Assembly (NCBI RefSeq): GCF_030936135.1
Contig: NC_082598.1
Span: 50,622,347 to 50,686,346 of the forward strand
DNA: 64,000 bases
Direction: 5' to 3'
DNA from: Gavia stellata
Lineage: Eukaryota; Chordata; Aves; Gaviiformes; Gaviidae
A model generated the notes under the pieces. That model worked only from the letters and a program-made list of their open reading frames with translations. It was not told where the DNA came from and ran no database searches. Position 1 is the first letter of the stretch; each line of letters begins with the position of its first letter. Of the stretch, positions 1,276 to 61,480 are shown piece after piece. A program made the position numbers and the translations under genes.

Positions 1276-15314
<14,039 letters not shown>

Positions 15315-33500: not shown

Positions 33501-34110
33501 GGCGGCACGGCGCCGCCCGCCCCCGGCAGGCACTTAAGCCGCGGCGGGGGAAACCCCTCCCCGGCGGCGCCGGCCCGGCCCCGGCCCCGGCCCCCGCCGC
33601 GGCAGCGGGGCGCCGCCGCCCGCCGCCCTCCCGCGGCCGCTCCGCACCGCCGGCTTCGGCCCCTTCGTGTGCTGTCCCGGCTGCCCCTCAGCTCTGGCAC
33701 CACGTTGGTCCCCTCTTTTCCTGCCGCCCGCCTGTGCTCGGCTCACAGCCGTCAGCTGCCGGGGGCTGCAGAGCCCCCGGTGAGACCGAGAGACGGGCCG
33801 GGTTCCTGCGGCAGCGGGGACGAGGGAGAGAAGGAGCGCTCTCAGGCTTCCTTTGTACGCGCTCGGGACACGGTTGCTGCCCGCTGCCGCCTTTCACCGT
33901 GGTTTGTGGCACCTGCCCCGGGACGGCTCCTGAGGGCTCCCCGAGGGGCTGAGGGCGGGGGGCTCTTGCCAGCAGCAGAAACCGGGAATATTCCTCGGGC
34001 AGCGCTGGATGGTGCTGCTTGAGTCTGCTGGGACAGTGCTCGGAAAGTGCAGCGCCCCAAAGCACCGCGGTGCTGCCAGACCCCTCGGGCGGAGGGCGGT
34101 GGGGGGGGCA
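32880..34110. promoter_or_regulatory. IGFBP7: CpG island covering IGFBP7 exon 1 and promoter
   Basis: Dense CpG and GC runs cover IGFBP7 exon 1 (33013-33500) and continue about 600 bp upstream. Several GC-box-like ggggcgg or ccgccc strings are present and no convincing TATA box sits at a useful distance from the ATG. A CpG-island promoter with dispersed starts is the expected reading. Long antisense open frames on the plus strand here (for example 32861-33952) come from GC-rich composition. Confidence 0.8.
33173..33203 (+). repeat. IGFBP7: (GGC)7 followed by G10 inside IGFBP7 exon 1
   Basis: Seven GGC units (33173-33193) run directly into ten G (33194-33203). On the IGFBP7 strand this is C10 then (GCC)7, encoding a Pro/Ala linker between the IGFBP and Kazal modules. 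Upstream frame demands 9 (or 12) C to enter the downstream Kazal frame; 10 are present. This is the exact site of the frame break. Confidence 0.93.
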
Positions 34111-36240: not shown

Positions 36241-36800
36241 TTTTCAGCGCAGGGGTCGGAGTTGGCCACCTCCGGACTTCCAGGTGCCGGGGATCCCGGG
36301 AACCGGCCGCGCCCGCTTCTCCTCCCGCTGCTGCGGCACCCGCCGAGTTTCGGTTCCGTTTCCCCGCCGGGGCGGGGCGGGCGGGGCGGTCCCGGCGCTG
36401 CCCCCGGCGCTGCCCGAGCTGTCGGGCGGCGGGCGAGCGCGGGATGGCGGCGGGACGGCAGCAGCGGCGGCGGCGGCGGGGCCGGGGGAGCGGTCCCCCG
36501 CGGCGGCCGCGGCGCACGGAAGGTAGCGGCTGGCGGGAGCGGCGTGGCGGAGCCGTCGGGGAGGGCGGCGGGGGCGGCTGGAGCCCTGCGGGGGGTGGGA
36601 GCCTCCTGGCCGACGGCAGACCCGCCGGCGGTGCCGTGCGCCCGGCGGTGAGACCCTCCGGGAGGGGTCCGTGGAGGTGAAATAGGCAATAATCTGCCGC
36701 GCTGCCTCGCAGGGGGAGCGAGCCGCTGCGTGCGGTGCTGAGGGACGTCCCAGTGCGCAGCAGCCGGGGGCGGCTGGCGGGGGAGAGACCGCGGCGGGGA
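36240..36800 (+). promoter_or_regulatory. HERC5: CpG-island promoter of the HERC5-like gene
   Basis: A GC-rich, CpG-dense block surrounds the first coding exon (36444-36522). GC-box-like ggggcggggcgggcggggcgg sequence occurs around 36369-36390, within 80 bp upstream of the ATG. No TATA box is evident. The island ends soon after the exon 1 donor. Confidence 0.75.
36346..36363 (+). promoter_or_regulatory. HERC5: ISRE/IRF-like element in the HERC5 promoter
   Basis: The plus strand reads AGTTTCGGTTCCGTTTCC, whose complement is GGAAAC GGAACC GAAACT. This is three 6-nt-spaced IRF half-sites and a one-mismatch fit to the ISRE consensus GAAANNGAAACT. It sits 81 bp upstream of the start codon inside the CpG island. 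Mammalian HERC5 and HERC6 are interferon-induced, so the location is apt. Binding is inferred. Confidence 0.6.
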
Positions 36801-39800
36801 AGAGACGTTAGTTTCCTCTGTGGTTACACGTTGTGGTTAAGCTGGGGAGGTGTGAGAAGGGGGGACAGGGAGCCTGCCAACAGTGGGCCTCCCCGGAGGT
36901 GTTAGGCAAATCAGGGAAGCTTTGCTGCTGGCTGCCGTTCACGCTTGGGCATCCTGGCTCTCCGGCACTTGGGCTGCAGTGGGGCCACACGCGAGTGACT
37001 GCGTAGATCTGGTGCCTCAGGGTCAGGAAAGCACCTGCAGCCCCTCGGCTGCAGACGAGAAGGGACTTCCTTCTGTTGTAAATAGGCAATGTGTGAATTT
37101 TCCGCCATTGCTTCTCCAGTGTCTTATCCAACATCTGACTTCAAGGCACCCCATCCCCAAGGCTGTGACAAATCTGGGGTGGTCAGATACCTCAGGAAGT
37201 GCTTTATCTCCCCAGGACACTCTCCACAGCTGTGCAACAGTAGCAGAGTGTGCTTCTGCTGACGTTTTGCGCATCATCTTAGGAGCTGGTGACACAGCAG
37301 CCTAAGAGATGGAGAAATGTCTTTTAGTGACAGCCAGGAGAGTTGTCTGGCATGAAACCAAGCAGTGGGTAGGACACTGAAACTCCAAGGGGCCTGAAAA
37401 AAATAAGTCATACACACTTGTCTCACTTCTTCCTGAGGAGCAGAAGCTCTTGGTGAAAGCAGTAGCACACAGAGGTCTTGGGAAAGGGGCCAAGATGGGT
37501 AAGATGCCCCCTGCCTTAGCGTGACTGTCCTGCCTGTCCGTATTTGTTCTGCAGAGCACACACAGTCGCAGAGGAATGGGAAGGTGCAATGTTCAAACCA
37601 CGATGCAACACATAAGCTCTTTCTCTCCCCCGATGGGAAGCTTTCTGAACAGTGGGCTACGGCTTCAGCTGACCGCTCTAAGACAAGGTGAGAAGCTTTC
37701 ACGGGGTGGAGGTATGGATGGTAACAGTCAGAAAATGTGGCCCACTTTTCCTAAAGGTAACATCCAAGAGACTGAGGCGTGTTCCTGTTGTAGAGAGGGA
37801 ATGAATGAACACATTCATGCCTTGTCCCCAAAACTTTATCTTCTTCTGTTACCCAGTAGGAATTGCACTGATTTTGAGGATAACACCAAGATATGAGCTG
37901 CTTGGGATGCACAGGAGACAGATTTCTCTCAAAGTTAGTAAGGATTGGTAGCGTATACCGGAGTAATGCAAATGACTTGCACACCACACATGGCTTGGGA
38001 AAGCTGTGGGTGAAAGACCCAAGCACACCTGAACCTTGCCACCTTCTGATTAAGCTGTGAGGGTGACCATCATCTAAAAACGGCACAGCAGTTTGCTGTG
38101 GGATTTTCTGTTATCTTGCCCAGGGTTGAGCCTGATTCTCTTCCAGCTTCCCATGGTGCAGACCACAATCGAATCAGTTAGCCCAGCTACACTAGGCTAG
38201 CGTAAGAGCAGGGTGAATCAACTTACAGGTGACCTATATTTTTCCACGTAATTCCCGCTAAACGTGCTAGAACTTGGTGAGCAGAGAATCTTCTTCCTTT
38301 ACTTTGTCTCATGGCACAGCATCTATCTATTTTGATTTGGTTTTTTTCCCCGTTATTTTTGTAGGCTGGTGAAAGAACTAGGAAACCAAGATATTGTTCA
38401 AATAGCGTGTGGGGACCAGCACGCCATGGCGCTCTCCAGAGGTAGCCTCTTTCAAGCACACTTTTCCTCCAAATGGGAGTCACATTATGGCAGGCTTGCT
38501 CTTGGAAGGGAGTGTTTGAACTGTGTCCAGTAGTTGGTGACATCTCATTAGAGAGCAATGAGCCATGGGGTGGGGGACACAAAGTGCATTGGCTGTCAGC
38601 GCTGCCCTGTCCTCCCAGCACCCAGGGACCTGGAGCTATGTCTCTCTCCAGTTCCTGAGCCCTACCCCTCCGCAAAGGTGTGTTGTGGAGAGCAGACACG
38701 GCCGCCCCACTCTGCGGTCACCAGACCTGCTCATTCTTAAGTTGGAGCACCTTTCTGGTTGGGAACTTCTTGCAAGTATGGCTTTAGAGGTGGAAGCACC
38801 CGGCCTTTATTCTTGCTGTGCTGAGTCCCACAAGCAGCATGGGACTGCCCTGAAGGGGTCAGAAGCAAACAGGGAGATTTGGTTGCTGCTGATGGTCTCT
38901 CACCTTGCAGCTAGATCCCTGAAAACAGCGCTGATTTTTGCTCCCACTCCTAAAGTGCAAAGACTCAAGGGAAGCAATGAGTCTGAGCTGTTTCCTTTTG
39001 TTCTGTGCGTGAAGGAGGCGAGCTCTTCACCTGGGGCCAGAATACCCACGGGCAGCTTGGAGTAGGGAGCCAAACCACGCTCATCCCTCAACCACAGCTG
39101 GTGGAAAGACTAAAGGGCATCCCACTCGCTCAGATTGCTGCTGGAGGAGCTCACAGCGCCGCTGTGTCACTGTCTGGAGCGGTGTACTCCTGGGGAAAGA
39201 ATGATTTTGGACAGCTGGGACTCGGAGACACAAAAGGTAAGGAAGGACCACAGTTGGAGAGTAAAGCAGTAGGAAGGTGTTTTCCTGGCCGGTGAGCTTA
39301 CTGCAGACACAGGAGTGGCTCCCGACTGTCAAGCTCCTTTGGAGCAGCAGTGGACAGTAAAGTCTTCTGAAGAAAGTATACCTGGATAAGTTGTTTCTGA
39401 GCTATTGTATCCTGACCAGGAAACGCATGCAGGGACAAGGGATTTAGGGGTTGCATTTCTGTAGAGAACTTCCAATGGTGTTATGTGGCCAACTGGATAG
39501 CATGGGCTCTTAAAACCGTATGTCTCAGAGGTCTCTTTCCACTCCCATTCTCTCTCCAGGCAGTCTTGCATGAAAGAAATTAATTTTATACCTCTGCCTT
39601 CTTTAATTCTCTGGAAACGCAAGGTGAGAGAAGACTTAAAATCACCCATTGTCTTCAAACCTAGAAGGCTAGAGCAGAGTTGCCCTAGCCAGACAGAACC
39701 TGAAGCCAGCAGGACCTGAATCAGTCCACACCCTTGAGAGTCAGGTATTTTGAAGCCAAGCACCTTTTGGCAAGCAGATGTGACAGTGCTGTGCTTTGTT

Positions 39801-42800
39801 TCAGATCGAACATAAATGAAAAGAAAATGCTATGAAAATGACAGAACATTATGAGAAAGAGTATGTTATAGTGGAGGGTAGAAAACAACTCAAAACCAAG
39901 TTGTAAATACATGAATTGCTGTAAGACAGGACTGAAAAGCGCTAAAAGCCCCTTTTTTCTAAATCTTTCTTTGTGTGAGACCTCCCAGTACTCTTTCACT
40001 TTAGCAGTGCTATCTTCTTTCCAGACAGGGACTGCCCATCGTATGTTGGAGCATTAGAGCACTGGAAAACTGTATTTATCTCATGTGGGGCAGATCATAC
40101 TGCAGTTCTCTCCAAGGTGAGTCTGAAATGGAAAGTCAGCATCTGAGACCTCACCCTGGGAGAAAAGATATGCTGCTAAAAGTCAGCATGGAGAAATCGG
40201 GATGGCAACACCTGCTTCCATCCGAGTCTGAAGACGATCCCCAAGGGATGCTAACTAAGCTATTGGGAAAACTGGCCTTTTCTCAGATTCCTATCACCTG
40301 CATGCAAACTTTTGCAGGGAGATGGTGAGTGGGAATCCTGGGGCAAAGAGGTGCAGTTCAACTCTCAGTATTTTTGAAAATACTATCTTTTTTGTAGCAT
40401 ATTGGGGACTTCAGAAAATGTGAACAACAGCTAATTCACTAGGGTTTACTTACACAAGTAAAACTCTTAAACAACAGGGAATTAATTATTCTTAGGATTT
40501 AAATGGCTTTTCTCAGGAGTTAAATGATTTGGACATTAGACAACGTAAGATTAGGCTTGATGCGACGTGAACTCTACCTGTGTTTGAATCAGAGGTGTTT
40601 TGAATCAAGTCCCATATAACATACTCTGTCTTGCTGGCTCTCACTCTCGGCGATGACCATTTGAATGACGTTAATAATACAGTGATCCTATTGTTTGTTT
40701 CTTCATCTTTAAGGAGGGGTTGGTGTGCACCTTTGGAGCAGGAGAGGCTGGCCAGCTTGGTCACAACTCCACCCGGAATGAACTCATGCCTCGTGTGGTG
40801 GCCGAGCTGTGGGGAGCAAGAGTTTCGCAGGTTGCCTGCGGCAGGTGGGAAAGTGCCCCTAACGTGCCTTCTAAGGTCAAGGTCTTAGGGAAATCGCTGA
40901 AGAACAGTAGGGAGGGGAGTCACCAAGATACTCAAATCCCTGTATCCCACTAGGTCAGCACTGTCAGAATATCGTCCACTCTTCAAGTGTAAGCCGCCCT
41001 CCTGCCACAGCCCCAGTGAAGGCAGAACTCTCAGCCCATGCCGAGCAGAGGAAGAGGGCTGCAAAAAACACCAGGAGCCCTTGGTTTTTTACTCTTTTAA
41101 GAAACGGAGGGTGCACTGGGCTCCAAAGGGCAAAAGAGTGTCAAAAGCCTGCGTCGGGAAAGTCGCTGAATTCCCATCCGCTTTGACAAATTGGTGCGTC
41201 CTTAGAAAGAACCAAAGAGTGATGATAATTATCCAGTTTCATTCTGCCTTTGTGGAACCGGGCCAGAAAATGTCTCCCGTCAACTTCCCTGGGCTTTGAA
41301 TTAGGCTCAGCAGCATAGAAGTTGCGCTTTAAAAAATGGAAGGGCGTGAAGCTAGCAAGGCATAACACTTTATTTTTGTATGTGGAACCAGGGTAAATTA
41401 CAAACATTGGAGGATAGTATAGGAAATTTGAGTCCATATGTTTCTTTATTGCTGAATGTTTATGCAAGGAAGTGTCCTAAGACTTTGGTTAAAGGGATTC
41501 TATAGCTGGACTGTCAGGACTCTTAAAGACAAGCCTCAGCTATCCACTCTGAAAACGTATCTGTAAATTTTATTCTGACTAGTCCAGTGGTATTAGCTTA
41601 TTATGACCTTCTTTTTCTGAACAGACAGCACACCCTGGTCTATGTCCCCTCCTTGGACAAAGTCTATTCGTTTGGTTCTGGTGAAGGACAGCTGGGAGAC
41701 GAGAGAAAGCCTTATCAGTTGATACCACTTCCCATCAGTTCACCAGTGAATACTGGAAAATCCTGTCAGGGTAATAACCATTGCAGATGTGTACAATCTG
41801 TATTCGTTTTTTCCAGGGAGATAATTGCTTTCTCGATTTCATGTTTACACTGAGGCTAACATTATGTCTCATGCTTGGTTGGTCATCCCAACAGATTCTA
41901 GCAATGGATAATTCCATTTGCTGCTTGATTTATCATCATGGGTAATGGTCATATAGAATCAACTTTTAGACAGACAGCTGCTATCTGAGGGTTTTTTTGC
42001 TGTTCCACATCTGTGCACTGAACTGTCTGAAGATAATGACTGTCTCTTCAAATGTTCCTTTGAAAATCTTTTTATTCTTTCACAGAAAAGAACGCGTCAC
42101 AAAAGGTGATTGAAATTACTGCAGGAGGAAACCGAAGTATTGTCCTTTGCAAGAAGAAAATGGTACGTGCGTATTTGATCATGGCTTCTAATGTTACCAT
42201 TGTTCACATTACTGCTGGAAACATTTGGATTTTCCATACTGCTTTTAGCGCTCCAAGTTCATATATGTTTCCTGCAGTTCTTTCCATACTTACCCAGAAA
42301 CTAACTTGTATTGCGATTATATATCTGTTCTGTGGTTAATGCATCTGGATCATGCTGGATGACCATTAATTTGCTCATACTTAGACTGAAATCTTCTTGT
42401 AATGATTGGCTTGAAGAAGAAGAATCCCATCTGCTAGACCTGTAATCTTGTCAATATTTTCATGCATTTCACACAGAATGCCTATTTGAATGGAACTGCC
42501 ACTCTGAAGGATAAGGAAGTGGATGCATGGATTTCTAATTCCAGTTTGCAACACTGGGAGACTATAAAAAAGTAAGTTGGAAACATGGTGGGGTTTTTTT
42601 CCCCCCTGATACATGATTTTCTCTAAAAACTATTATTCTTCAGAGACTATTGTAGGAACTGATGTTCAAGAATTTAGCCGACGCAGAATCTTGTACCAGC
42701 ACTTCTTACCTAGTTTTGCACAGGAAAAAGAGATGTTGATAAGCAACAGCCCTTCAATAACCCTTTTGCAGGAACAGAGCAGACGTACTGCCTGGCTTTG

Positions 42801-45800
42801 GAAGCCTGTCCTCCTCTTCTTGCACAGAATGGTTGTTAAGCTGATGAAGAGGTGGCAAGTTAAATCAGTGAAAGATTTGGTCTGCAGACCGAGGCCTTGT
42901 GCAAAAATTGTAATTCAGAGTACTCAAGTGTTTTGTGTGTGTCAGCATTTAAAAATTAGTGATCCCTTCTTTAGTTACCCATTTTCAAAAGCAGTAAGTA
43001 TATACTACTGTGGGAAGCCTTACACTTATGGCTGAGAATTATGATTATGTAGTCTTTTTTCAGATCTTATGTGGGAGGTTATTTTCTTTGGGAAAGTCTG
43101 ACTCCAGCTGGTGATTTTGAGCATTTAAAAACCTTGCCTAATTTAGATCTAAATTTTTCTCTGACCACTTTTAGTGTGGTTTGGATCATATTGGACGTGG
43201 TTGTTGAGAGGGTGAGAGAGAGAGAGGGTTCTTTCCAGATCTCAACAGGAAGGGCCTGACAGCAAATTGCCTGATAAAATAGCTGCTTTAATAAGGATAG
43301 AACCAGGAATACCGGTAGTGAGTAAGTCTAATGTCCCTTCAGACGCTGGCAACCCAGTGTTCATGCAGCAGCAAATGGACATCCTGATGGATTTTCCCTC
43401 AGCTTGCTACAGAGATCCCGTCTGTGAAGGGGTTCCTCCTCCCCTCCATGCCGCAGCGCCTTTTCTTTTGTATAACGACAAAACCAGACAATGTCCCAAC
43501 CTGTCAGGAGAAGAACACCCACCGGCACGCAGCACAAGCTGGCATGGGGCAGGTGAGCAGGTTCCCTCACAAAGCCCAGGACAGCAGAGGTGGCTTGCCA
43601 AAGTTCACTAACTCCTCGAATACGTCGTCTTCTGCAACGCTCTCAATAAAGTAACACTAAGAAAAGTTTTATGTGGCCAGGTGCAGACACACTTGTACAT
43701 GTGGTTTTTGTTCTTTCAGAATTAAAAACCTGAAGTTGCTACTCATGTTGAAACGATTGACTTTGGTTTGTTTTTTACTACCAGGAATATCAGACTGATC
43801 TTTTCATCCGAGGCTTGCATCAATGGAAGCTTCCTGGAGAAAAGGTAGTGTGTGCTGACTTAGATGTAACAGAATAGATTGGCTGCATGTAAACTGACCA
43901 GAAAGTGTTATTTTAGCCCACATATGTAGAGAAGATTAGTCGTATCTGAATTTGCAAGAAGCAAGTTTGTATTTTTCAAAGCCCAAGTTAAAATTAAGTT
44001 TTTTATCCCTCCAGTCCTATTGAAATTTGCTGTAGAAGCTCACATTCTAGCAGATTTTCCCACAGTGACATTTGACATATGATGATAATCCCTTTAGGCA
44101 ATATTACGGCTCCAAAGGATCCAAAATAGCTCCTCCCAGCACTGAAGTGCAAGTCATTTTAGGGTGAAATACTGGAAGCCTACCATTAACGGTGCGCAGC
44201 TACACAAGGCAGGAAGGACAGAATATTAATCAGTGAGAATATCTTCATAGAACAGATCAAATTATACCCACTGGCATCAGGGCTGAACTTTCCAAGTATT
44301 TTCTGATGTTAGGATGCTTCGCTATTCAGTTAGTAACAAAAACCAGCTTCTCACATCATTTGGTGTTCTTCTTTTCCTTTGTGATAGAGACAAACATTTC
44401 AAAACTTCCAAAGAGGTCTCGGGTGTAGACATGTCAGAAGTGCAACATTTTTATGAGAAGATCAGCAAGAAACCAAAAGTCTTCCAGGAGGTAAGGATTC
44501 GATATAAGGATTGTCACTGCACAGATACTGACTGAGGAGCTCTGGATTTGTGCATGAAACTTGGGAATTTCCGTGCCAATCTAATTCACAGATGATTTTG
44601 GCAAAACATAATTGCATTTTTAACCCTTGTCTCTTTTTTTTTCCTCTGAAGGTGCAAAAGGAGATTGAGAAATTACTGCCATCATTGTCTTCCTCTCCCA
44701 TCTCACCTGAAAATTTCAGGGTCTACTTGATCTTGCCTTTCCTTCTGCAGGGAGAGGATGAAAGCTCTTACCGTTGTCTCAGGCTGCTAGCACAAGCCAT
44801 CACGAAACTCCAGCCAAAGGACCTGCAAACTCTTGGTAGGGTTTTATGATGATAGAACTGAACGATTTCAATGCTTGATCACCTCCGGCTGCAGAGAAAG
44901 AGTTAGTATCGCTGATGTAATTTCTTCCAAAGTTCAGCCTGGAAGAAATGCTTTCGGTAGGAGTAGAAACATGGGGACTACACAGCAAGACACAAGAAAA
45001 AAAATCATCTCAGTCTGAGGTTTACTAATTTTTATAGTGCAAAATTAAGCTTTTTTTTTTTTTGGTTTAGTTCATGTGATAAAAAGAGAAAATGTGGCTT
45101 CATCCACAAATTGCAGTTATTTGCATGTTACCTGTGACGGATACTTCACTAGCTGTTTTCTTTACAGAATGCTTGTGGTCAAATCTAGATACATCCTTTT
45201 TCAAGCAGCTGGTCATTCTATATCAGAGGGTTTCCCAGAAAAATCTGTCTCAATTTATCATGGAAGTCAGAGGTTGGCAAAGAAACCCCTACAACCTGCA
45301 CCCACATGAAACAGTGACTCTGCAAATACTGCAGATTCTTTACCAGGTGAGAAAGCGTTTGGATCCTGATTATATAGGACGTATCAGTATGAGTTAAGAG
45401 TATTTTAATCCTTTTTACTTGTTAAATTCTCTGGGTTTCCTTCTTAGAAGGGAACATGGGGCCTTGTCATTTGTCATTGCTTCAGGAATCTCTTTGGCTT
45501 TACACCAGCATAGCTTTGAAGGAATCCTGCTCTTGAGTTGTGCCTGGCTGACCCTCTATAGAAATGAAGAGCTGAAGCATGTTATAGCCCCTGGCAGGGG
45601 GCGGGATGCTTTCAGTGGTGTGAGGAGTGCATGCACTGATGCGTACAGAGCTATGGATGTCCTGTCCGTGACGCAGCATGCCCGTTCCCCTTTCTGCTGG
45701 TGAGATCCCCCACCCCAGTAACTGCTCACAGCATTTAAAAGACAACCCACCTGCTTGGCACATCGTGGCTGCTGTGCGATGCTTTAAGAGCCTGTTAGCT

Positions 45801-48800
45801 GAGTTGTTTTCTGGGACAATAGAATTAGAGCATCTTTAGCTGCATACGAACAAGGGGAAGAAAGGGGGCAATAACTGTGTTCTTGACAACCATCCTTTCT
45901 CCTTCTGAGGTGTTCAAAGTTTAGGAAAGTCAAGAGCTCAAGCATGCACTTAGTATGAATACGGGAGAGTCATTAGATTTTGTTCAGAATTGAATATCCT
46001 TTTGGCTGAGAATGCAGATTTGGGCCTCGATGTTTAGGCTTTTGAATCTGTATTTGTCCAGATAAATAAACTCAAAAGTGCAGCAGGCCTACTCCTCTGT
46101 AAGTGCTTACATCCTTTGGAGCTTTACATGTTCACTGTCCCCCTTCCAAAATCGTATCTTTGCCAGGCAACAAGCATGAATGTGAATAGGGAACTTCAGA
46201 TTGTCCTGCAATGTGAAAAGACACTCAAAGTGAAACATACCTTTCCTGATGGAGTCCTGTTAAGGGATCTTCATTGTAGATGAAAATTGCCTTCCTCTCA
46301 GTTTACACATGGCTTTCTGAGACTTCTCGCTGTTGAGTGCTGTGCTACTTGTAGCACTTTTATCCTACCACTTCTGTGCAGGGTCTCAGAGCTCTTTCTG
46401 CAGACAGTCCTTTTACTCCTTAGTCCTGTCCTGCCAGTCAGATGCATAGCTCACTCGATCTGCTGACACCCCTTTTCATATTGCCTGTTATCAATGCAGG
46501 TGAACTCCAGAACTGGTTTCAGAGTACAAGAAAACAACTTCTATGTGCCTCAAGTGAAAGTGATTATCCAATGGTGTTCGTTCTTTAATGCAGAAGTAGT
46601 AAGTATAAAATCTTACCAGCAGTGCAAAACACTTTTTTTTTCTGTTTTATTTAAATGAGTCAATATAGATGAAAGTCAACTCCAGACTCTAGCCCAGTAC
46701 ATCTCAAAGACGTTGCATTTTCCCTAGCTCTCCAGCTGTTCTAAATTATGCAGGCCATTTACCACCCCAGTATTTTAGCAGCTACAATAGTGCCTTTCCT
46801 GAGATGACCCCTGGTTCTGAGAGTCGGAGCTGCCCTCCAGCATCTTGAGCAGCTCTGTTTGCTTTGAACTGGTATCACTGTGAAATAGCACCATGAGGGA
46901 TGATTGCTATACTCGTTACTCTGGATTTTATTATGTTGAATTAACAGAAATATTGTGAGGTGTCTTTAAACTTTTATGTAGAAACCCTATTGACCATTTC
47001 AGTTTACTTACATCTAAAAACAAAGCCATGGTAATAAAAAATAATCTGTGAAATGGTTAATTTCTTGATGACGTGAAGGAGTGAAAATCAGCTACCAAAT
47101 GCAATCGGTGTCACAGGAAGCAGCATGAAATGGAAATGTGGATAGTAGGGGCTTCCTTAGGCAAAAAATGCAGTTTTCTGGCAACTTGGCTGGAATTTCC
47201 AGGGCAACTGCCTAATTCTTTCATAAGCTTTCATTTGCTAATGGACCAATTTTGTACCAATTAACCAGAGCAGAGGAGGAGGTTTGAGAAACAGTATAGC
47301 ATCAAAAGCCAAATAGGACATTACCCGAAGTTGCTGCCTTATCACACTGGAGGTGTAACACTTTGAATTAGCTTATTTTGTATACCAATATCTACTTTTG
47401 GTATTACAGATAATAAACCCACCAGTTTTTAACAACAGTGTACGATAACCTGGGTATCCAGGACGTTTTTACTATGTGTTTTGGTTTAGCTGAGTTATGG
47501 AAGATGCTATTAAAATCACTATTTGTTTTTTTTCTCGGGGCACTGTAACACAAGTGCCTGCCTGCACAGACAGTTCAGATGCCTCTCTGTCAGGGTTTCC
47601 CTCTCACAGAAGTGTTTAGAAGCTGCTTTTAGAAAATGTGCCTCTGTTGCCGTAGTGTTCATGTACACAACAAGGGCATGTTTCAGAGATACAGGAGTTT
47701 GCCAGGGTACAGACTGGTGGTTCAGTCTGCACATGTACCCCCGAACTCTGATTTTGCAAGAGAAAATCAACCCATCTTTTTCTTTATTCCTTGTCATTTC
47801 AGATAGCCCTATGGAAGCTGACCAAATATCCATGCATCTTTGACAGGCAAGACAAGATCGTTGTTCATCGTACAGAATGCAACATTCTGTCCTTCTCTTC
47901 TAGTGGTGTAAGTGTGGCAAAATTTTTACAATTTAGAAGAGATAAACACACTGCTAACAGACTGTTACTTCAATCTACAGCTATGCTTAATACCGATGGG
48001 CCAGGAACACTGGCTTTTTCTGGTCAGAAGAGAGCGCCTTCTGCAAGACATATGGACCCATTTAAATGGTGCACCAACCCAGCAATTCAAGAAGATCTTA
48101 AAGGTAAGATACCAAATTGTATTTGTGTTAGTTCTGCATATATTGCTACAGTGTTCTTTGGTTTTCAGTGTTACTGAAGTACTGCTAGAAGGGTTTCGGT
48201 ATTCACTGAGCATACAACAAAACAACTACTCATCAAATCACTATAAAACATGTTCCATAGGGGATGTAGAGTAAATCTGGAGGGTAGTATCTTACATATG
48301 TATTCCAGGTAGCCATCAAGCTTTGTTGGCATAAGTTAAATGCAAGTGGCAGTGCTATTTACAGTGAAGTTGCTTTGGGGTAATGTAATAGGATCGCTCA
48401 GGAAACTGGTAATTGGCAAAGTTCATTACTGTAACTGCTAGACTGACTTTAAAGACTCTAGGCTAGTTTGCTGTACGTGAAAAACTTGGTGGCTGGGGAG
48501 CCAGCCTTAGAGGCTAGCAAGTGACATAGCCACAAAAGCGATTTCTCTCATGGAGATGCTGCCTGAAGGGAAAGGAAGGATAGTGCCAGCAAGAGAGATG
48601 GAAAGCTGATTATAATGCTGCTGTCTCCATGTGGCTTTAGTCTGTGGTTTCCACACAAACCCAAAGGTTCTGGCAGCTTCAGTTTCTTCAGGTATTGCAA
48701 TGCTAGCCCTGCCCTGCAAAAGCCATTTGATGGCTGACATGGGAACAGGGCACCTGCCCAGAGTGGAGCTCAGCTCAGGGACCATGTGCTGTATCAGTCA

Positions 48801-51800
48801 CTAACCCAAGGGCTGTCAGAGCCTGGCAGCACGCCCGTGCGGCAGGAACTATCAATCTCTGGTTCTGGTTCCTCCCGAGTGAGCCTTCTTGGCAACCAGA
48901 GCTGTCAAAGCTTTTCCTTCCTGTATGCTTAGGAGAAGATTCACAATGGCCCCTAGAGCAACCTTTCCTTCCCCCTTCCTCACTACATCAGCTGAAAGAG
49001 GAATTTATTTATGGAGGCAATAAGGCTTGTGCTCTGTAGTGTCCTCTGCATCTTGAGTCCTTCTCCACTGATTGTACAAGGAGCCCCAACCAACAGCTGC
49101 CCCAACCAACAGCTGCACTAGCTAGAGTCAGCCTTCGAATATGCCTCTTGCAGGCACTGCCTTCCATACCGTGGATGACAGCACTATTTGCCCAGCAGCA
49201 GCCTGATCAATTTGACTACCTTATTGTATCCCACCAAGAGACGCTGAGGTCTGCAGTATTTACAACTTGGTGCTGCATTTCTGAATTTTGCAGCAGGTAA
49301 AGGACATTCATATTTCTGTGTTGCAGATATAAGCCACCCAGTAACAAAACATAAAAAAGAAACCCTTGTAACAGATTATCGTAGCATTAACCTGTCCCCT
49401 TCATAGCTGTGTCCTGTGAAGACATTTTGTCAGACAGTACCGAGAACGTAGTTCTTTGCACCTGACAGCCTCACAGTGGTCTGTCACTCCATTCTCTACT
49501 GTTGCTGTAAATGAAAACAGGGAAAATTGAAGTATTTAGCAGAAGCATCTTCTGTTCACCCTCTGCCGAGGAGGAGATGGTGCTAAGGGGAAAGATACTC
49601 TACATACTTAAACAGCGCATGTAGCTGCCGACTTGGCTACCAAATCCTGGGTTCAGTTGGAGTTACTCTTCCTCTAACCCGTCAGGAGAAGTCTCTTTAA
49701 TGAAGATGACCCAGCCTGGCTATTAAACGTGGGCACTCAGACACATTTAACAAATAGTACAGGGACATACATCTCCTAAGCAGACACTGGAATATGTTGG
49801 AGGCCACTCTAACAAAACCCCCCAATGCACAAGTACATCTTTTCTGCAGTGTTGTCACTTGCCCATCTTTTCTTAAAAGGAAAAAAAAAAAAAAAAAGGG
49901 AAGCAAGCAGCTATTGGACATACAGACATGGGTATCATCCAAGTAAATGTCTTCATTTAACTCAAGTTTTGTTATCAAACATCAGCCTAATTTATTTTAT
50001 GTTCTTCTGACAGTAAGACAAATACATTTCCATACATGTATCAGTTCAAAACAAAACCAAAGCTTGTAATTCAAAGAGAGGTTCATATAGCTGCATGTTG
50101 TCATTGCTTATTATTTAGGCTCAGTTATTTCAGTCAGGGTACAGTTCTTCCTCATAAAAATGATCACCACTTAGAAGATTTTCATTAGTGCCACTACAAA
50201 CGCACAACACTCTTGAAGGGATACACTAGAAGGCATTAGTGCTTATTATTCCTTCTCTTTATCTGCCGTAGCAGTAATTAAGTAATAGGCTGCTGGAGAC
50301 GACGTCATACAGTTCCAGGTATCACTAGGAAAATGACGACAGTCACTAGTGCCAGAAGGGAACTCTCTCAAATCAACTGCAATACCTGATGAGATTAAAC
50401 AAAACCGCATTGCTTTAGAGAAGCCCAGGGGTTAGCAAATGCATCGCACTAGTTGTGCCTAAAAAGCTTAATCCCCATCCAGGTCCACAGGTGGAAGAAT
50501 ACATACACTGGTATTGTAACAGGAAGGAGGAGACTGTAGAAACATAAGCTGTTAGTGCTGGTGCAGCCCTGTGGGAAGGTTTCATCTACACTGGCTGAGT
50601 AAAACAAGCCTGCCAGGGACAGGAGGGGAACCAGTACAGTCAGCGTGGGCAGGGAGGGGAGCATGCCTCCTCCAGCCATCGGCCCCAGTGTACAGCCGTG
50701 GCTGGCGGGTCCTCAGGGCTGCTTCGAGCCCTCAGCTGGGGGCTGCTTCTGAGTTGTCCTGGCAGCCTCTGGGATCATGTTCGGGATGCCGTCGATGATG
50801 GGGTATGCAATGCCCAGCTCCTCGTTAACGAGCTCGTTGGTAGCTTCATCATACCTGGCCAGGCAAGTCAGGGGAAAAAAAACAGAAGAGGAGGCGTGAG
50901 TAACCCGGGTTTGCCCTTTGGCAGCCCCTCTCGCTCGACCCGGGGCAGCGGTAGGCCAAGGGCGGGCAACGAGAGCTGCTCTCCCGCCGCGGAGGGCCCG
51001 CCCCGGCCCCCGGCCCCCGGCCCTCACCTCAGCGGCCGCTTGGAGAGCGGGCACACCAGGAAGCGCAGCAGCGACGGCTCCAGCGGCTGCGCTGAGCCCG
51101 AGCCCTGCCCCTGGCGCTGCCCGCCGCCGCTCGCCGCCCGCCGCAGCACCGCCGCCGCGCCGCGCCCGCCGCCGCGCAGCATGGCCGCCGCCGCCGCGCC
51201 ACTTCCGGTGCGCCGCCAACCCGCCCCGGGCTGCGCTGCGGTGCGCGCACAGGGGTTCCGCCCCGCGGCGGGGGCCGGTGCCCGTCTCCCCGGCGCTATG
51301 GGTGTCTGGGGACTCGCAGGTGTCCTTCGTGGGCGAGGCAGGAGTGGACGAAGGCGGGCTGTCCCAGGAGCTCTTCAGCGTCGCCGTCAGGACCCTCTGC
51401 CAGCCCAGCACCGGGGCCTTCCGCCGCGTCGCCTCCGGCCTGGTGTGGTTCCCCAGCCAGGTAGGGGGCCGGCAGCCCCGCGGCCCGGGGAGGTGGGGAG
51501 CCTGCTCCCGGGAAAGGCAGTCACGGCTTTTTGTACGTGCTTGTTTTTGACCAGGCGTCGAGCTGCGAGGACATCTTCTTCCGGGTCGGGACGCTGTGCG
51601 GAATGGCCCTGTACAACGGCTGCATGGCGCCCTTCCCCTTCCCCAGGGCGCTCTACAAAAAGCTGCTGGGCCTCGCGCCCACCCTGGAGGACCTCGAGGA
51701 GCTGGAGCCAGCCACAGGCCGGTACGAGCCAGCCGCAGGCCGGTACGAGCCAGCCGCAGGCCGGTACGAGCCAGCGACCGGCCAGTACGAGCCAGCCGCA

Positions 51801-54800
51801 GGCCGGTACGAGCCAGCCACCGGCCGGTACGAGCCAGCCGCAGCCTGAGCTTTTGCTGGGATGCTACAGCCGAGGCGGGTCTCCTAGCTTGACGATGCGC
51901 ATGGAGATCTCCAAGGCCCTATTGGGAGTACCCGTGGCAGCTACGTTTGCCGTTGCGGAGCTGCTAAAAGCCACGGATTTCCAAGGTGGTCCTTGGCCGG
52001 GGCACGGATGTTGCTCTCCAACGGAGGCTGGCATCGCCAAAATAAAAAGCCGAGCCCCATGGCTTAGAAGGGGTCAGATTTCTGCTCCATGTTAGCTAAG
52101 TCCACACTCTGAATATACAGTTTAAAACCACTTTGAGCTGTAGTTCGGACTCGGAAGAACTAAGCACTCAATTACAGATGTTGGTTTTTTGTCTGATTTA
52201 CTGATTATCAGTTTCCACAATGATGTTATGCACAAGCACAGTACTAGCATATGCTGCCATTGTGCCAAATCTGAGAACCCGCATGCAGGGTTTCCACATG
52301 CTGGGAAAGGAGATTTCGGGCAGATACAGCAGGGAGAGGTGCTGCTGCCACCAACATAAAGCTTCTAGGCCCCTGAAGCCCAGCTTTCCACTCAAGTGCT
52401 ATAAGCAGCTGAGAAGATGAGAACCCTTTCCCACGAGCCAGTGACTGAAAAATCACAGGTGGACTGAAATGTCAGGTTGCCTGCAATACTTTGAGAGGTG
52501 CTGCATCCCGAAACAGTTCTACCAGATCATCCCACTGGTCCACAACTTAATTCCTCCCTAGATGATACCTGGAAGAACAAGGCTGTGGCCCAAGCCCACT
52601 TGCCATGGAACTTTGTGTAAAGTTATGCCCACAGGGCGTGGGGATGGACTTGCTGGGAATCCTTCACGGTGAAGGCATCTGCCCTCAGCTCATGGCAGCA
52701 GTGGGACATAAGTGTACAGATCAGTTTAGGGCCATATATGAAGGTTCTGTGTGAGTATAGGTGTTCTGTATGTATATGCATTTAAATACTGCTTGTCAAA
52801 GGATGGTTTTCAGCGGAATTTGAAAGTGCATCAAATGGTCATGTTTCTTCTCTCTTTTTTTCCCCTTTGTTTTTTCAAAAGGAGTCTTCAGGGAATTTTG
52901 GATGAAGAATGTGATCATATCATTGAGAGCCTGGACATGGACTTCACGGTAAGACATTATTGTGCCATTCAGACGCCATGCATGTACTCAGGCAAGACAA
53001 TGTCCCACTGTAAACGACACAACTTGTCTGTAAACTTAAGCTAGTAAGAGCGCTCTGTCAGGCCCTACAGAAAGAAAGAAAGATAGATGTAGCACATATA
53101 TATCTGTCATATATAGATATGGCATCCAATGTTTTCATTTATTTGCATAGATAATGGAAGAAGGAGGTTCCATGGTTGCTGTTGAACTTAAAAAAGATGG
53201 TGCCAACATTCCTGTCACTAAGTATAACAGGTCAGTTTTATTTTTATTTTTCTTATGCTGTTGTCATGTTGTGAGTGTGTGAAATACCATATCTATACCC
53301 ATCCCCATATGCTCTTAGAAAATATTGAACATCAGCATCGTGCCGTTGGTCTTGCTCCAGCAGGTTGCATGCTTTCAGTTCTTGCTGTATGTGCTGCGTA
53401 TGTGCCAGACATCAGCAGTTTGTGCTGCAGTGGATAAGAAGGGGATCCTTGGACACCCTGGCATCTGCATATACAGAGATGCCTGACCTTATCAAGGAAG
53501 TTCCTAACAAATGTATAAAGTACCCCTGAACAATATTTTCAGGGAAATATGGACAACTTGTCTGGGAAATCCAGCTGTAGGTGCACCTCTATAAGGTTTT
53601 TTTTTACAAGCAAAATGTTTCCTGCTTAGTTACGTATATGGAATGTATCTTGTATATAACAGAGGAGGAGCAATCTGTCAATAAGGTATTGTGTCAATGT
53701 TAACTTCAGAGGACGGGGGACAGAGAGAAATTCTGTGGCCTGAGTTATGCATATGATCTGAGGACCTACAGGGATGCATGAAAGGGCTCTTTAAGAAGCT
53801 TGGAGCATAGTGTTTACATTGAGTTGATTGTACAACTACAATGTCACTAAAGGTATCCCCATCACAAATAGAGAGAAGAGGGAGACTGTACTGATTAGCA
53901 GCTGTGCAAATATTTATTTTGATTTCAGGGTAATTCTTGGACGTTCGTTTGGAGTTTTGCTGAATTTACACCATTTAGGTCTGCTAGGTTCCATCTTAAT
54001 AGTGAAGTGTCTGATAGGATTTCATTGGAGAGGTCACATGAAGTACAAGGAGTATCATCAAAATGAATCCATGTTGGCCAGCATTCTCTTTTATTTGTGA
54101 TGATCCTCCCCCCTTATTCAGTGAATAAATAATGGCCAGTGATGACTGCTCTCAGTAAAGACTGAGTCTTTATAGTAGAGCGGGTCATACGGAATAAAAG
54201 AATAAGGAATAAAGTTCTTTATAATTCTCCTTTTAAAAAAGCACCTATTGCATTGCTTGTTTGATTCAAAATATCTTTGCAGGAAGGAATTTGTTGACTT
54301 GTATGTGAATTATGTGTTCAATGAATCGATACGGAAGCCATTTGAGGACTTTATGCAAGGGTTTTTAAGAGGCTGCCCAGCTAGACAGTGGAAGATGTTT
54401 CTCCCTGTAGAGCTCCAGATTGTTCTCCAGGGACACACAAAATTTGACTGGCATCTGCTGGAAAAGGTATGGGATACAAGCACACTGTACTTCTGCTACA
54501 TCTGCTGAGCATAAGCTCTTTCTGACCTGTTCTTCTGTTGAGTGCGTAGGTCATGAACAGAAAAACAGAAGCTCAAGGGACTTTCTCTTTTCTTGATATG
54601 TGTTGTTTTGAGTCTGTTTCTAATTTACATCAGTCACAAGAATAAAGGGGACTAAAAATCAAGTCGTAGCTCAAGGATTGTTACAAAAATCTTTGAAAAA
54701 CAAATGAACAAGCAGATTGCAGAGGTTAAGAGGATTTGAATATCTATGAACAGGATTATAAAATTTATTGGATAAACTGTTGTTGCTTTAAATAAAAATG

Positions 54801-55790
54801 GAAATAGTTAGGATTAACTGGCCAGTTTTATTTTTATCTCTTCGACAGAATGTGACATACAGCCAGTATAAAAAGTCAGATCGAACCATCAGGAATTTTT
54901 GGACTGTGTTTCACAAACTCCCAGAAGAAAAAAAGAAACTGTTTCTTGGTAATATATCAGGCATTTTAAACTTTTCATCGCCCTTTTCTCTCCCTCACAA
55001 CACACATTTTAGATGCTTGCACATAAAAATACTATAGTTCCAAAGTGCTTTTTGACATTTTTCCCCCCCGCCACATTTTCTAGTGAAAGCCATGAAGAAG
55101 TGACACAAAGAATTGCACAGACACAGTTCTGACCCTTTTCACATCCCTTGAGGCTTGCCCGAGTGCATCTGACTTCCTTGAACCTTGCAATTACTTTATC
55201 CTTTACTTTTGTGGTTATCAGTTGTTGGTCAGAGGCCTCAACTTGTGTGAGCAGACTATGCTGATGTCAGCATTTCAGCTTTCTCAAAGAATCGCAGAAG
55301 CTAGCTAGTCCTTTTTAAATGTAGAAGGTCAAACCTAGCCTGGCCTTTCTCATCCACAAAGTCTATATAAGTAAAAGAGCACTTATAGTTATGAATCAGC
55401 AAGAGACTTTATTATATTCAGGTACAAATTCAACAATAAAAAAAATTGGCTTATGGAAATAGCTGTATTTTTACACTAATTTTCCCTCATGATTTTCATC
55501 CTCTGATAACATTATCTTGTTTATTTTTTTAAATTTGCTAACTTGTTTTTGTTTTTCTTTTTCCCCTTTGTTCAGCTTTTTTGTCAGGATCTGATCGAAT
55601 CCCTGGCCATGGAGTGGAACATTTTAAATTTTCTATTGCAGATCCTCAAGCAGAAAATCCAGATGAGTGCTATCCTTTTGCCAATACCTGCAACTACATT
55701 TTGTTCCTCCCCAGATACAGCAGTAAAAGAATACTCAAGAAAAAGTTGCTTTATGCCACAGAGCATAATGAAAGTTTTGGCTTGTGCTAA
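36444..55790 (+). CDS. HERC5: Small HERC family E3 ubiquitin/ISG15-type ligase, HERC5-like
   Basis: Exons: 36444-36522, 37555-37687, 38365-38441, 39015-39236, 40025-40116, 40714-40844, 41625-41770, 42086-42162, 42477-42571, 43785-43844, 44388-44490, 44652-44835, 45168-45346, 46500-46598, 47803-47907, 47981-48103, 51320-51460, 51555-51721, 52882-52948, 53151-53230, 54283-54466, 54849-54948, 55576-55790. All are GT-AG with matching phases and give 952 residues (human HERC5 1024). A basic N-terminus is followed by RCC1-type repeats up to about residue 350 (GGELFTWGQN, VYSWGKNDFGQLGLG, CTFGAGEAGQLGH, VYSFGSG), a helical linker (IFSSEACINGSFL), and a HECT domain from residue 636 (VSFVGEAGVDEGGL). 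The catalytic cysteine is in NTCNYILFLP, about residue 920. The RCC1 part resembles HERC5 more than HERC6 or HERC3, and PYURF adjacency agrees. Mammalian HERC5 attaches ISG15 and is antiviral; activity here is inferred. The N-terminus is about 60 residues shorter and the segment before HECT shorter than in human. Confidence 0.9.
47908..47980 (+). other. HERC5: 73-bp intron of the HERC5-like gene
   Basis: The donor GTAAGT at 47908 and acceptor ctacag at 47975-47980 bound a 73-bp intron. Reading through keeps an open frame (47791-48177) but ends in phase 1, incompatible with the phase-0 HECT exon at 51320. Splicing switches to the frame encoding LVRRERLLQDIWTHLN and ends AAG|, which joins VSFVGEAG exactly where HERC proteins read VRRNHLIEDVL...VSF. 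This decides the model. The predicted protein lacks about 25 residues found here in mammals. Confidence 0.75.
49084..49115 (+). repeat. 16-bp tandem duplication
   Basis: Two perfect adjacent copies of ccccaaccaacagctg lie in HERC5 intron 16. It looks like a recent slippage or duplication event. Confidence 0.9.
49991..49996 (-). terminator. PIGY: Candidate PYURF/PIGY polyadenylation signal
   Basis: The plus strand reads tttatt, i.e. AATAAA on the minus strand, about 455 nt past the PIGY stop codon. No closer AATAAA is visible, so this would give one mRNA carrying both ORFs. Confidence 0.45.
50449..50664 (-). CDS. PIGY: PIG-Y, GPI-GlcNAc transferase subunit
   Basis: PIG-Y is a small ER membrane subunit of the GPI-N-acetylglucosaminyltransferase complex, which starts GPI-anchor synthesis. 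The 71-residue product from ATG 50664 is nearly the mammalian protein: LPSLPTLTVLVPLLSLAG forms the first membrane segment and LLLPVTIPVYVFFHL the second, with the ending WTWMGIKLFRHN. An in-frame ATG at 50679 would add five residues (MAGGG); 50664 is chosen because it gives the known length and has G at -3. It lies 48 nt after the PYURF stop, in the same frame and uninterrupted by introns. As in mammals, where one transcript carries both ORFs, PIG-Y is expected to be translated as the downstream cistron. Confidence 0.96.
   Translation of the reverse strand: MLPSLPTLTVLVPLLSLAGLFYSASVDETFPQGCTSTNSLCFYSLLLPVTIPVYVFFHLWTWMGIKLFRHN
50713..51182 (-). CDS. PYURF: PreY/PYURF, mitochondrial Trm112-like protein, two exons
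   Basis: Exons on the minus strand are 51182-51028 and 50854-50713, joined CTGAG|GTATGAT, giving 98 residues (human 114). The conserved core reads LLRFLVCPLSKRPLRYDEATNELVNEELGIAYPIIDGIPNMIPEAAR in overlapping segments, the Trm112/UPF0434 fold hallmark. The first ~30 residues are Arg/Ala/Gly-rich without acidic residues, fitting a mitochondrial presequence. In mammals this protein stabilises mitochondrial methyltransferases needed for complex I assembly and coenzyme Q synthesis. The ATG at 51182 has a GCCATG context. It is antisense inside HERC5 intron 16, and its start codon is only 138 bp from the first HECT exon. Confidence 0.96.
50900..51480. promoter_or_regulatory. PYURF: CpG island at PYURF 5' end, spanning HERC5 exon 17
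   Basis: Very CpG-rich DNA covers PYURF exon 1 and extends over HERC5 exon 17 (51320-51460), and exon 18 is still GC-rich. Minus-strand transcription of PYURF/PIGY should begin between about 51183 and 51320. CpG islands are often bidirectional, so short plus-strand transcripts entering the HECT exons are possible, but no first exon for one can be proved from sequence. Confidence 0.7.
51705..51848 (+). repeat. HERC5: 21-bp tandem array carrying serial in-phase 5' splice sites (HERC5 exon 18 end)
   Basis: Six full 21-bp units start at 51705, 51726, 51747, 51768, 51789 and 51810, followed by an 18-nt partial unit ending in TGA (51846-51848). Each full unit encodes EPA(A/T)GRY-like residues and contains ggcc(g/a)|gtacgag. 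The homologous HERC exon ends at the first donor (exon end 51721), and exon 19 at 52882 continues SLQGILDEE as in family members. Donors recur after 51742, 51763, 51784, 51805 and 51826. Because 21 is a multiple of three, every donor joins exon 19 in frame, adding 0 to 5 copies of YEPAAGR. The fourth unit is variant (cca|gtacgag, Gln for Arg). Read-through of all units reaches the TGA. Confidence 0.85.
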
Positions 55791-58700: not shown

Positions 58701-60400
58701 TACATGTTCTTCTGAAGAAGGTCCAACCTTGCCATGGGCCTGCCTAGGGCAGCCCTTAGCCAGCAGGGAGATGTGGACTCCAGCCTGACCACCTCCAGGT
58801 GAAGACCCAGGGGCTCTTAGGAAGAAATCTGCAGAGTCAGCGGCCTCCAGAGGGAGCTGTGCACAGCGGAGTGCAGGGACACAAACAAAATGGGTTTATT
58901 TTGGTGTCTTTATTTAATTTTATCCATTTATGAAGGACCAGCCTCGAAAGTTCTCCACGAACCTGAAATGCAGCAGTTAGAAATTGGTTTAAGCAAGAGA
59001 GTCCTGGCTCCCTCGGACAAATTGCAGGCTTTGCTTTCTCATCTACTTTTTTTTTTTGCTTTTCTGTGTGTACCTTCCCCTCGTTCATTACTCAACCAGA
59101 AAAAAACACAGGAAACCGAACATAAAGGGAAATGCTGACTATTTTGCAAAGGTCTCCAAATGATGAAATAAATAAACCAAAAACAAACCAAGGAAATATT
59201 TTTTCCTCTACACTCTCAGATATTATAGAAGCTGCTTTAACACTGGTTAAGTAAAAGCTGTTACGTCACAGGTGTAATTTTACACTAGAGAGTAGCTCTT
59301 TTTATGCTAAACATGCATGATCTATGCAAATACAGGTGAATTTTTATTCAATACATGACACATTGCATGCTAAGTACACAAAGACTGCAAACTGCCAGAG
59401 ATGTAGCATAAGGGAGATGAATACTGTGGGCACTGGACTTGCTTTAGGGACCTCCTTCCCCCTCCTTCCCCCACCCCAAGCCCTTGCAAACTCTCTGTGG
59501 TTTGCTCAAATATTGACTGTCATTTTGATGGTCGGAGTGGGATCCAGCTTGTGCATTGCCCTCGCGGCATGCAGAGTCTTTTTCTAATGGATGGCATCAA
59601 AATCAGAAAATGAGTACTCTGGAGTTATATAATTGCTTGCTCATCGGCCTCTTTTTTTTTCCCTCTTTCTCCCAACAGATATTTATACTTTGACCACAAA
59701 TATTTTCCTAAGGTTGAAGCTTTGTATAAAATGAGTTCCTAAACAAGCCAGCCTGTCAGGTGCCCTAGAGGCCATGTAAAATGCAAGATGAAAAGCAGGA
59801 GAGTGGAAAGGAACTAACTATTGTTATTAATAAGTGGTATTTCATGCTTAACAAAACCAAGAGAGTAATTTTAAACAACGGAAAGCTGGCTTTCCCTCAA
59901 GACCTTCATTTAGACTAGCTTAAATTCTAGAATATTTGCATATGCTTAACTTTACCCATTTATTTCTATTGTCTTTAGGGCAGCTACTGATCTCCTTAGC
60001 TCCTAAGACTTGCCAAATCTCTGCAGTCACAACCCTTGGCCGCGGTTTGCGGCAAGAGCTGGTTATCCATAGCGCTCGGTCTTTGGCAGCAGCCTCAGCT
60101 TCCGTGGCATTTCCCCATCAGCAGGAACGCGGGCATGCGGGCTGACTGCAAGGAGCTCTGACCCCAAGCAGGGCCGTGGCTTCGGGGAAAGGAGATTCCC
60201 TGAACAGACCTTCCTGGGGGACGAGGCAGAAATGGCAACACAACATCCCCGAGGAAGCGTCGTCCACCCCCTGCCCCCAGCAGCAGGCTATAGTCACTGC
60301 CAGACGCCAGCAGGCCGGGGAGCCCCGGAGGACCGGCTGACTCCCTCCTCACCGCTGCTTCCGCCAGGCGGGCCAGGCAAACCCTCAGCACCGGGAGTCG
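55791..60400. other. 3' UTR of the HERC5-like gene, then intergenic DNA without recognised genes
   Basis: After the HERC5 stop at 55788-55790 comes AT-rich DNA with a candidate AATAAA at 56468. A GC-rich block at about 57300-57700 has open frames on both strands (up to 163 codons) but no domain or splice-consistent chain. The rest shows only A or T runs. No transposon family is recognised. Confidence 0.7.
56468..56473 (+). terminator. HERC5: Candidate HERC5 polyadenylation signal (AATAAA)
   Basis: First canonical AATAAA after the HERC5 stop codon, about 680 nt downstream. An ATTAAA variant at 56381-56386 is an alternative. No other gene on this strand could own them. Confidence 0.5.
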
Positions 60401-61480
60401 GGCCTAGCCCGGCCTGAGCGAGCCTCGGCAGCCGCCCGCGCAGGCAGCGCCAGCCTGAAGCAGCCTGTCACGCTGCCTCAGGCCCGGCCCGCCGCCGGCC
60501 GGTGTCGTGGGCTCTTCGGGCGGTGAATGCCCCGCGCGGGGGCCTTCCCGCACCCACCCCACGGGCCCGGGGAAAGCGCTGAGACGGCTGAGGACGAGAG
60601 GCGGGGGACAAGCGGGACCCGCTGCCACCGACCGCCGGCGGAGACCCGCGGACTGACAGAGCGCCCCGCCCCGCGGGGGGCGGGGCGAGGCGCAGCGCCC
60701 GCCGCCGATTTGTGCTCCGGGGCCGACCCCGCACCTTCTATTGGCCGTCCTCAGCCGTCACTCCCGCCGGCGGCGGCGGTATCAGGGGGCTGGACTTCCT
60801 CGTTGCCGTGGCGGCAGCGGCGGGGCTGGCGGCAGGTGAGCGGCGGGGAGCGCAGCTGCGGCGGCCGGGGCACGGGGCGGGGGGGGGGGGGTTGGCGGTA
60901 GCCTCTGGCAGCCGCTCGCCCCGGGCGCCCTGCCCCGCGCGGCGCGGTCAGAGCCCCGCCGGGGTGCGCCCGAGCCCTGAACCGTTGCGCTAGGGTCGGG
61001 CCTGGCCCGGCGCGGCGAGTGCCGGCGGAGGGAGAGCCCAGCTCCCTGGCGGGGCCGCCGGTAGAGCTGCTGCCGGTGCTCGTACCGAAACGGTGTGTGG
61101 GGGAGAGGGGGCAAAATGCAACAGCGGCAGCGCGAGGGTGCGCGTAGCAGCGCGGCGGCATGGCGGAGCCCCGCGGCCCCGCCGCCCTCCCTGGCGCAGG
61201 ACGCGCGTCCCCGGGCGGGGCCTCCCGGGCCGGTGCGCGGAGCCGGGGGTGGCAGCGGGGCTGCGGCAGGAGCCGGGCGGCCTTGATGCTGAATCAGCTT
61301 GCGGGGTGGGCAGGGGTTGCTGCCGTGGGGTGCCGGCGCGGCGGGGGGGGGGGGCGGGCAGCGGGTGCCCCAGGCCGCTGCTGTCGGTCCCTGGCGCCGG
61401 GGGCTCGGTGTCCCCGCCGGGCTCGCTGGAAAGGCCGGTCTGGGTGTGGGCAGCAGCAGCAGTAAGCACGGAAGCCAAGC
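60400..61480 (+). promoter_or_regulatory. CpG-island promoter and probable non-coding first exon of the next gene
   Basis: A 1.1-kb CpG-dense block carries GC-boxes (ccccgcggggggcggggcg near 60670), an inverted CCAAT box (attgg, 60740-60744) and, about 95 bp further on, a strong plus-strand donor ggcag|gtgagc with exon end 60835. This arrangement suggests transcription to the right from about 60770-60800 with a short 5' UTR exon. In human, HERC3 follows HERC5 and PYURF/PIGY, so HERC3 is the first candidate, but no coding exon of it lies in the window. Confidence 0.6.

Follow-up and report, generated by a model that had tools for sequence, protein, structure and literature searches.

The 64,000-nt stretch of the genome of the red-throated loon, Gavia stellata (Gaviiformes), analysed in this work (contig NC_082598.1, positions 50,622,347 to 50,686,346 of the forward strand; referred to below as the window and numbered from its first nucleotide) carries a HERC5/6-like gene in which the boundary between exon 18 and intron 18 lies within a tandem array of 21-bp units, so that six candidate splice donors precede a single acceptor. 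In a sequence-only reading, made earlier from the DNA letters without database searches, the array had been described as the source of a length-tunable insertion in the HECT domain. The evidence presented below suggests that it is probably a young minisatellite with redundant weak donors, giving rise to leaky, unselected and near-neutral isoforms. The gene and the elements around the boundary are as follows.

36444..55790 (+): HERC5/6-like gene (RCC1-like domain and HECT), from start to stop codon with introns, exon 1 uncertain; spliced alignments, start codon read, Pfam, NCBI protein P0001
51555..51721 (+): exon 18 as bounded by donor 1 (canonical form); spliced alignment to P0001, same junction in aligned relatives
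51705..51843 (+): 21-bp tandem array, 6.6 units; Tandem Repeats Finder (TRF)
51722..51723 (+): donor 1 GT, 0 heptads added
51743..51744 (+): donor 2 GT, 1 heptad added
51764..51765 (+): donor 3 GT, 2 heptads added
51785..51786 (+): donor 4 GT, 3 heptads added; A at -1, lowest scores
51806..51807 (+): donor 5 GT, 4 heptads added
51827..51828 (+): donor 6 GT, 5 heptads added; intron-proximal
51846..51848 (+): TGA closing the frame upon retention of intron 18; reading frame
52041..52046 (+): AATAAA in intron 18, a possible early polyadenylation signal that may be due to chance; sequence
52882..52948 (+): exon 19 (SLQGILDEE...), with the acceptor common to all donors; spliced alignment

The gene encodes a small HERC ligase composed of an RCC1-like domain and a HECT domain. 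RCC1 repeats were recognized by Pfam in the translated window exons (PF00415, E 1.7e-55; PF25390, E 3.9e-55) and so was the HECT domain (PF00632, E 5.4e-77), whose catalytic Cys911 is invariant in 38 aligned proteins. The top match in a search of 5.8 billion proteins, with 8000 candidates scored, is P0001, named by NCBI 'probable E3 ubiquitin-protein ligase HERC3 [Gavia stellata]'. The window exons reproduce it except in exon 1 and at two exon ends, where short stretches were misplaced by the alignment script; one of these stretches, VSFVGEAG, was located at 51320 by tblastn. The first, human-guided gene model contained one stop codon, situated in the doubtful exon 49469-49620; the P0001-guided model, which has no stop, lacks this exon. 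The sequence-only reading had assigned the HECT domain to HERC5. A HERC5/6-like protein with the HECT domain and its cysteine is indeed encoded; the exact name is less secure, as the relatives among the matches listed are inconsistently called HERC3, HERC4 or HERC5-like. A passage of PMC6002735 reports HERC5 and HERC6 as missing from most birds, and in an excerpt of PMC4974698 the chicken locus is judged consistent with homologues of HERC6 and HERC5.

The array detected by TRF at 51705-51843 straddles the end of exon 18 and the start of intron 18 (period 21, 6.6 copies, 88% matches, 0% indels, score 229). Translated in order, its seven units read EPATGRY, EPAAGRY, EPAAGRY, EPATGQY, EPAAGRY, EPATGRY and EPAAA-stop, the seventh being partial. 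Units 0-5 vary at four positions, two of them synonymous (third bases of codons 3 and 4), the third an Ala/Thr switch and the fourth an Arg/Gln switch that also weakens donor 4. With up to three mismatches allowed, the consensus unit occurs five times in the window, always inside the array and never outside it, the Q-bearing unit remaining uncounted since it differs from the consensus at four positions; 100 dinucleotide shuffles gave a mean of 0 such matches. The reading frame of the array stays open until the TGA at 51846-51848. Of random 21-mers with the local composition, 80% lack a stop in a given frame, so this openness is unsurprising and was set aside as evidence of selection.

The last exonic bases of the six candidate donors are 51721, 51742, 51763, 51784, 51805 and 51826. 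Five donors share the context CCG|GTACGA and donor 4 reads CCA|GTACGA; when joined to 52882 each of the six keeps the frame and adds from 0 to 5 heptads. The sequence-only reading was thus accurate as to the array with its six GT donors, their common context, the frame and the duplication of the splice site together with the exon end. The energy of the duplex formed with the 5' end of U1 is -4.3 kcal/mol for the five good donors and -1.7 for donor 4, whereas the 18 other donors of the gene (a comparison made without those of exons 1, 14 and 15) are all stronger, ranging from -5.1 to -11.5 kcal/mol. A frequency-based weight matrix gives the five good donors 1.65 and places six others of the P0001-guided model (exons 3, 7, 10, 12, 14 and 22) below them; the two scales thus differ as to how far the site stands out. 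No GT listed from 51556 to 52880 with a matrix score above 0.5 surpasses the array donors, but the three intronic ones in that list pair better with U1 (-5.6 to -8.1). In RNA folding over three spans the five good donors had a mean unpaired probability of 0.32 to 0.46, donor 4 had 0.34, 0.43 and 0.15, and eight control donors 0.12 to 0.48. RNA folding that would hide or expose particular donors was set aside, since no good donor is distinguished by predicted accessibility; the window gave no Rfam match to a structured RNA at the gathering score. With identical nine bases, weak U1 pairing and similar accessibility, nothing visible in the sequence separates the use of the five good donors.

Relatives were collected in a first protein search (the best 120 of 2196 matches), to which two proteins from a search with the heptad region were added, giving 122 proteins. 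The last 330 residues of those longer than 700 residues and of P0121 and P0122 were aligned (P0001 from residue 651), making 111 HECT tails; the other 11, none longer than 700 residues, were excluded. No insert was found at the exon 18/19 junction in any of the 111 tails. Pro725 is invariant in all of them, and the heptad opens with Glu in the loon alone, the other 110 having at that position Leu, Ser, Met, Trp, Ile, Phe, Val or Cys. Three of the tails (P0071, P0082 and P0116) come from gene models that are odd directly after the junction. In the predicted protein P0116 of Pavo cristatus GRYGMS is retained, seemingly the start of intron 18, after which the protein appears joined to exon 20 with exon 19 skipped.

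A further search with exon 18, the heptads and exon 19 yielded 15 short proteins matching exon 18, 14 of which were assigned to birds by similarity only. One is spliced at the boundary (P0133, GR|SLR), one stops there (P0137) and 13 continue past it, reading GR|YEP in 11 cases, GR|YGM in one and GR|YKL in one, with a second unit in none. Past the boundary P0123 reads LQPRRVSSLDDVHRD..., which resembles the LQPRRVS-stop-LDDAHGD... obtained by translating the loon intron from about 51864 onwards. Judged by eye, ATDFQ- or TDFQ-type text is shared by P0124, P0129 and P0131 with another frame of this part of intron 18, which follows the array; the shortest fragments offer too little sequence for such a comparison. 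The chicken-like fragment P0132, so named by similarity, has no array at the boundary. As GTAYGARCCN after the split Arg codon encodes YEP, a single donor followed by this intron start looks ancestral, at least for the 11 fragments, and from GR|YEP we infer the donor form GTAYGA in other birds too. Within the proteins sampled the array is private to the loon.

From the read-through fragments with a single copy, the array unit is seen to consist of the last 14 nt of the exon (CCAGCCRCAGGCCG) and the first 7 nt of the intron (GTACGAG), which supports the amplification of the exon end and its donor together. In the sequence a CC dinucleotide stands at each end of the 21-bp boundary segment, an arrangement that would suit slippage or microhomology-mediated duplication. 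On this duplication model the GAG of the repeat units would descend from intron positions +5 to +7. The exonic copy of the heptad has the same GAG codon (Glu724), which suggests that a unit replaced the exon end, and Glu724 is likely to stem from such a conversion.

The junction falls between residues 729 and 730 of P0001. The sequence-only reading had placed it at 738/739; the site itself is right and the numbering arose from other exon choices, at least that of exon 1. Its placement of the junction in the HECT N-lobe near the E2-binding side is borne out, since the alignment puts the junction at E6AP 637|638, by a hand count anchored on the catalytic Cys820 and verified at T656 and F690. Residues of this helix neighbouring the junction presumably touch UbcH7. 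In an excerpt of PMC8635412 T656 and F690 of E6AP are named as catalytic and E2-interface positions, so the junction maps within the half of the N-lobe holding E2-interface residues, and the site is probably sensitive to insertion. The variable loop expected by the sequence-only reading is not what the structure model of the donor-1 protein gives: a helix at 717-723 is followed by Glu724 alone and by a second helix at 725-736, with the junction inside the latter (mean predicted local distance difference test score, pLDDT, 93 in blocks 711-720 and 721-730). Since each unit ends EPA[AT]G[RQ], every form reads PA-x-G-(R/Q)-SLQGILDEE; on the model the second helix would be rebuilt in every form, and the added residues would lengthen the turn before it. 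The turn that an insert would thereby widen is tight and conserved, and joins two helices of the E2-binding N-lobe half.

The explanation which in our judgement accounts best for these data, and which we hold to be reasonably probable, is that of a minisatellite that arose in the loon lineage by tandem duplication of the 21-bp segment spanning the exon 18/intron 18 boundary. A unit that includes the donor and has a length divisible by three would, with every further copy, supply one more weak donor, equivalent to the others and in frame. Several of these are probably used by the spliceosome, so that proteins with between 0 and 5 additional heptads would be made side by side with no dedicated regulation. 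The copying would at the same time repair the protein, every form ending EPA[AT]G[RQ] before SLQ so that the start of the next helix is kept, and owing to such self-repair the array would be tolerated without being selected for. Conversion from a unit carrying GAG from intron positions +5 to +7 may, moreover, have replaced the exon end itself (Glu724). A more far-reaching version, in which the boundary minisatellite acts as a ladder of equivalent donors whose copies each add a heptad and rebuild the helix start, the linker lengths following the copy number and perhaps varying between individual loons, is speculative and we consider it quite unlikely.

Several observations weigh against a mixture of isoforms. 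The annotated protein P0001 ends exon 18 at donor 1 and has no heptads. No heptad-bearing protein was found among the 71 proteins of the heptad-region search or among the 15 of the search with exon 18, heptads and exon 19, and EPA[AT]G[RQ] occurs once in the 122 proteins, in P0001. Gavia stellata is the only loon sampled, the mixture itself is deduced from DNA sequence, and two point changes from a Leu codon would yield Glu724 equally well. With equal donors the intron-proximal site is generally preferred. In DOK7, as a passage of PMC5585400 describes, the intron-proximal donor is preferred, so use could settle at one end of the array. In favour of a mixture, the same passage reports minigenes with two donors 11 nt apart, in which the upstream site was suppressed less strongly once its sequence had been made identical to that of the downstream donor. 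If only donor 1, or effectively one donor, were used, units 2-6 would be a plain intronic minisatellite with no effect on the protein. This alternative is possible though on balance rather unlikely: the annotated exon end and the lack of an insert in the aligned tails agree with it, but the choice of donor 1 possibly follows from homology-based annotation, and donors 2, 3, 5 and 6 match donor 1 in nine bases and in U1 energy, with nothing visible that would silence them.

Selection for a splicing-controlled, length-variable insertion tuning the HECT domain of an antiviral ligase, close to what the sequence-only reading had proposed, appears improbable to us. The site, by the hand-counted numbers, lies in the N-lobe half with T656 and F690, and the chicken gene of the same layout is strongly interferon-induced according to part of PMC4974698; against this stand the 111 tails with no insert and an invariant Pro725, the heptad protein that neither the annotation nor the protein searches provided, the open frame that random units would show 80% of the time, and the five good donors, which offer no difference that could be regulated. 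Neither the length-tunable surface nor a regulated choice of donor is therefore upheld; a regulated length switch, though possible, lacks support. Intron retention or early polyadenylation as the main effect of the array would give a read-through protein ending YEPAAA-stop in the N-lobe (TGA at 51846), with AATAAA about 190 nt further on at 52041, and the catalytic C-lobe would be lost. The U1 pairing of the good donors, weaker than that of all 18 other scored donors, would suit this course, but six donors of the gene score lower still by the weight matrix, the donor form GTAYGA is indicated for other birds too, and one AATAAA in such a stretch is in our judgement unremarkable; we regard it as very improbable. 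An assembly artefact, in which a single or double copy had been expanded, is hardly to be expected: the broken frame of the IGFBP7-like exon at 32950-33501 points to possible base errors in other parts of the window, whereas the four positions at which units 0-5 differ are unlike the product of a simple assembly duplication.

Zhuo et al. are said to have described in 2007 introns originating from tandem arrays; there, as in the loon, the repeat supplies splice sites, whereas in the loon an existing donor has been multiplied and no new intron is claimed. As located by TRF and spliced alignment, the loon repeat overlaps an exon-intron boundary and is in this respect of a known kind. Segmental duplications of primates in which variable internal tandem repeats lie at such boundaries are described in PMC2812944, which counts 27 intron modifications; three of these are coding and in frame, with units of 9-30 bp. 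The loon array is like them in unit size, boundary position and potential to change splicing; in the portion of PMC2812944 concerned, however, the primate repeats are RNA-supported and form novel introns in recently duplicated human genes, whereas in the loon the original donor lies within the unit, the gene is that of a bird and the case is known from sequence. In DOK7 intron 4, too, neighbouring donors compete before one acceptor, but as far as PMC5585400 describes them these are two unequal donors 11 nt apart, one of which shifts the frame, in contrast to six in-frame donors 21 nt apart, five with identical nine bases. Among the matches listed from the open-licence literature, no such repeat in HERC genes came to light. 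The array is a natural experiment on the choice that the spliceosome makes among six near-identical weak donors of one exon, for which the single-copy relatives serve as controls, and on the way in which a minisatellite at an exon boundary can insert peptides into a conserved catalytic domain with the neighbouring helix intact; if one donor alone is used, it is an ordinary intronic repeat.

Two further genes lie within the HERC gene on the opposite strand.

50452..50712 (-): reading frame of PIGY, antisense in the intron of the HERC gene that precedes exon 17; Pfam PF15159, E 2.3e-09

The PIGY and PYURF frames together occupy 50452-51182 (-) in the intron before exon 17; PYURF was recognized by eye from its reading frame, its first exon giving no Pfam match. 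The array is situated about 0.5 kb upstream of the PYURF start codon and could also touch the PYURF promoter. Another short GC-rich tandem repeat, at 51115-51197, overlaps the PYURF first exon region. The same layout is described in part of PMC4974698 for chicken, where the HERC5/6-like LOC422513 spans antisense PYURF/PIGY; there interferon induced LOC422513 87-fold as measured from one end and more from the other, and PYURF went down 24-fold. The boundary of the chicken-like fragment P0132 differs from that of the loon in having no array.

Elsewhere in the window, an RNA polymerase subunit 2 type exon (PF00562 in Pfam) at 11122-11445 (+), in the left part, is one which we take to belong to POLR2B. 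The first exon at 32950-33501 (-) is IGFBP7-like; the name is our assumption, as the stretch tried gave no Pfam match. Its frame is broken near a G-rich run, with the start in one frame and the later part in another, owing to a sequencing error or a real change. Finally, a GC-rich island at 60400-61500 (66% over 60001-62000) is possibly the promoter of the next gene, which from its position in other species would be HERC3.

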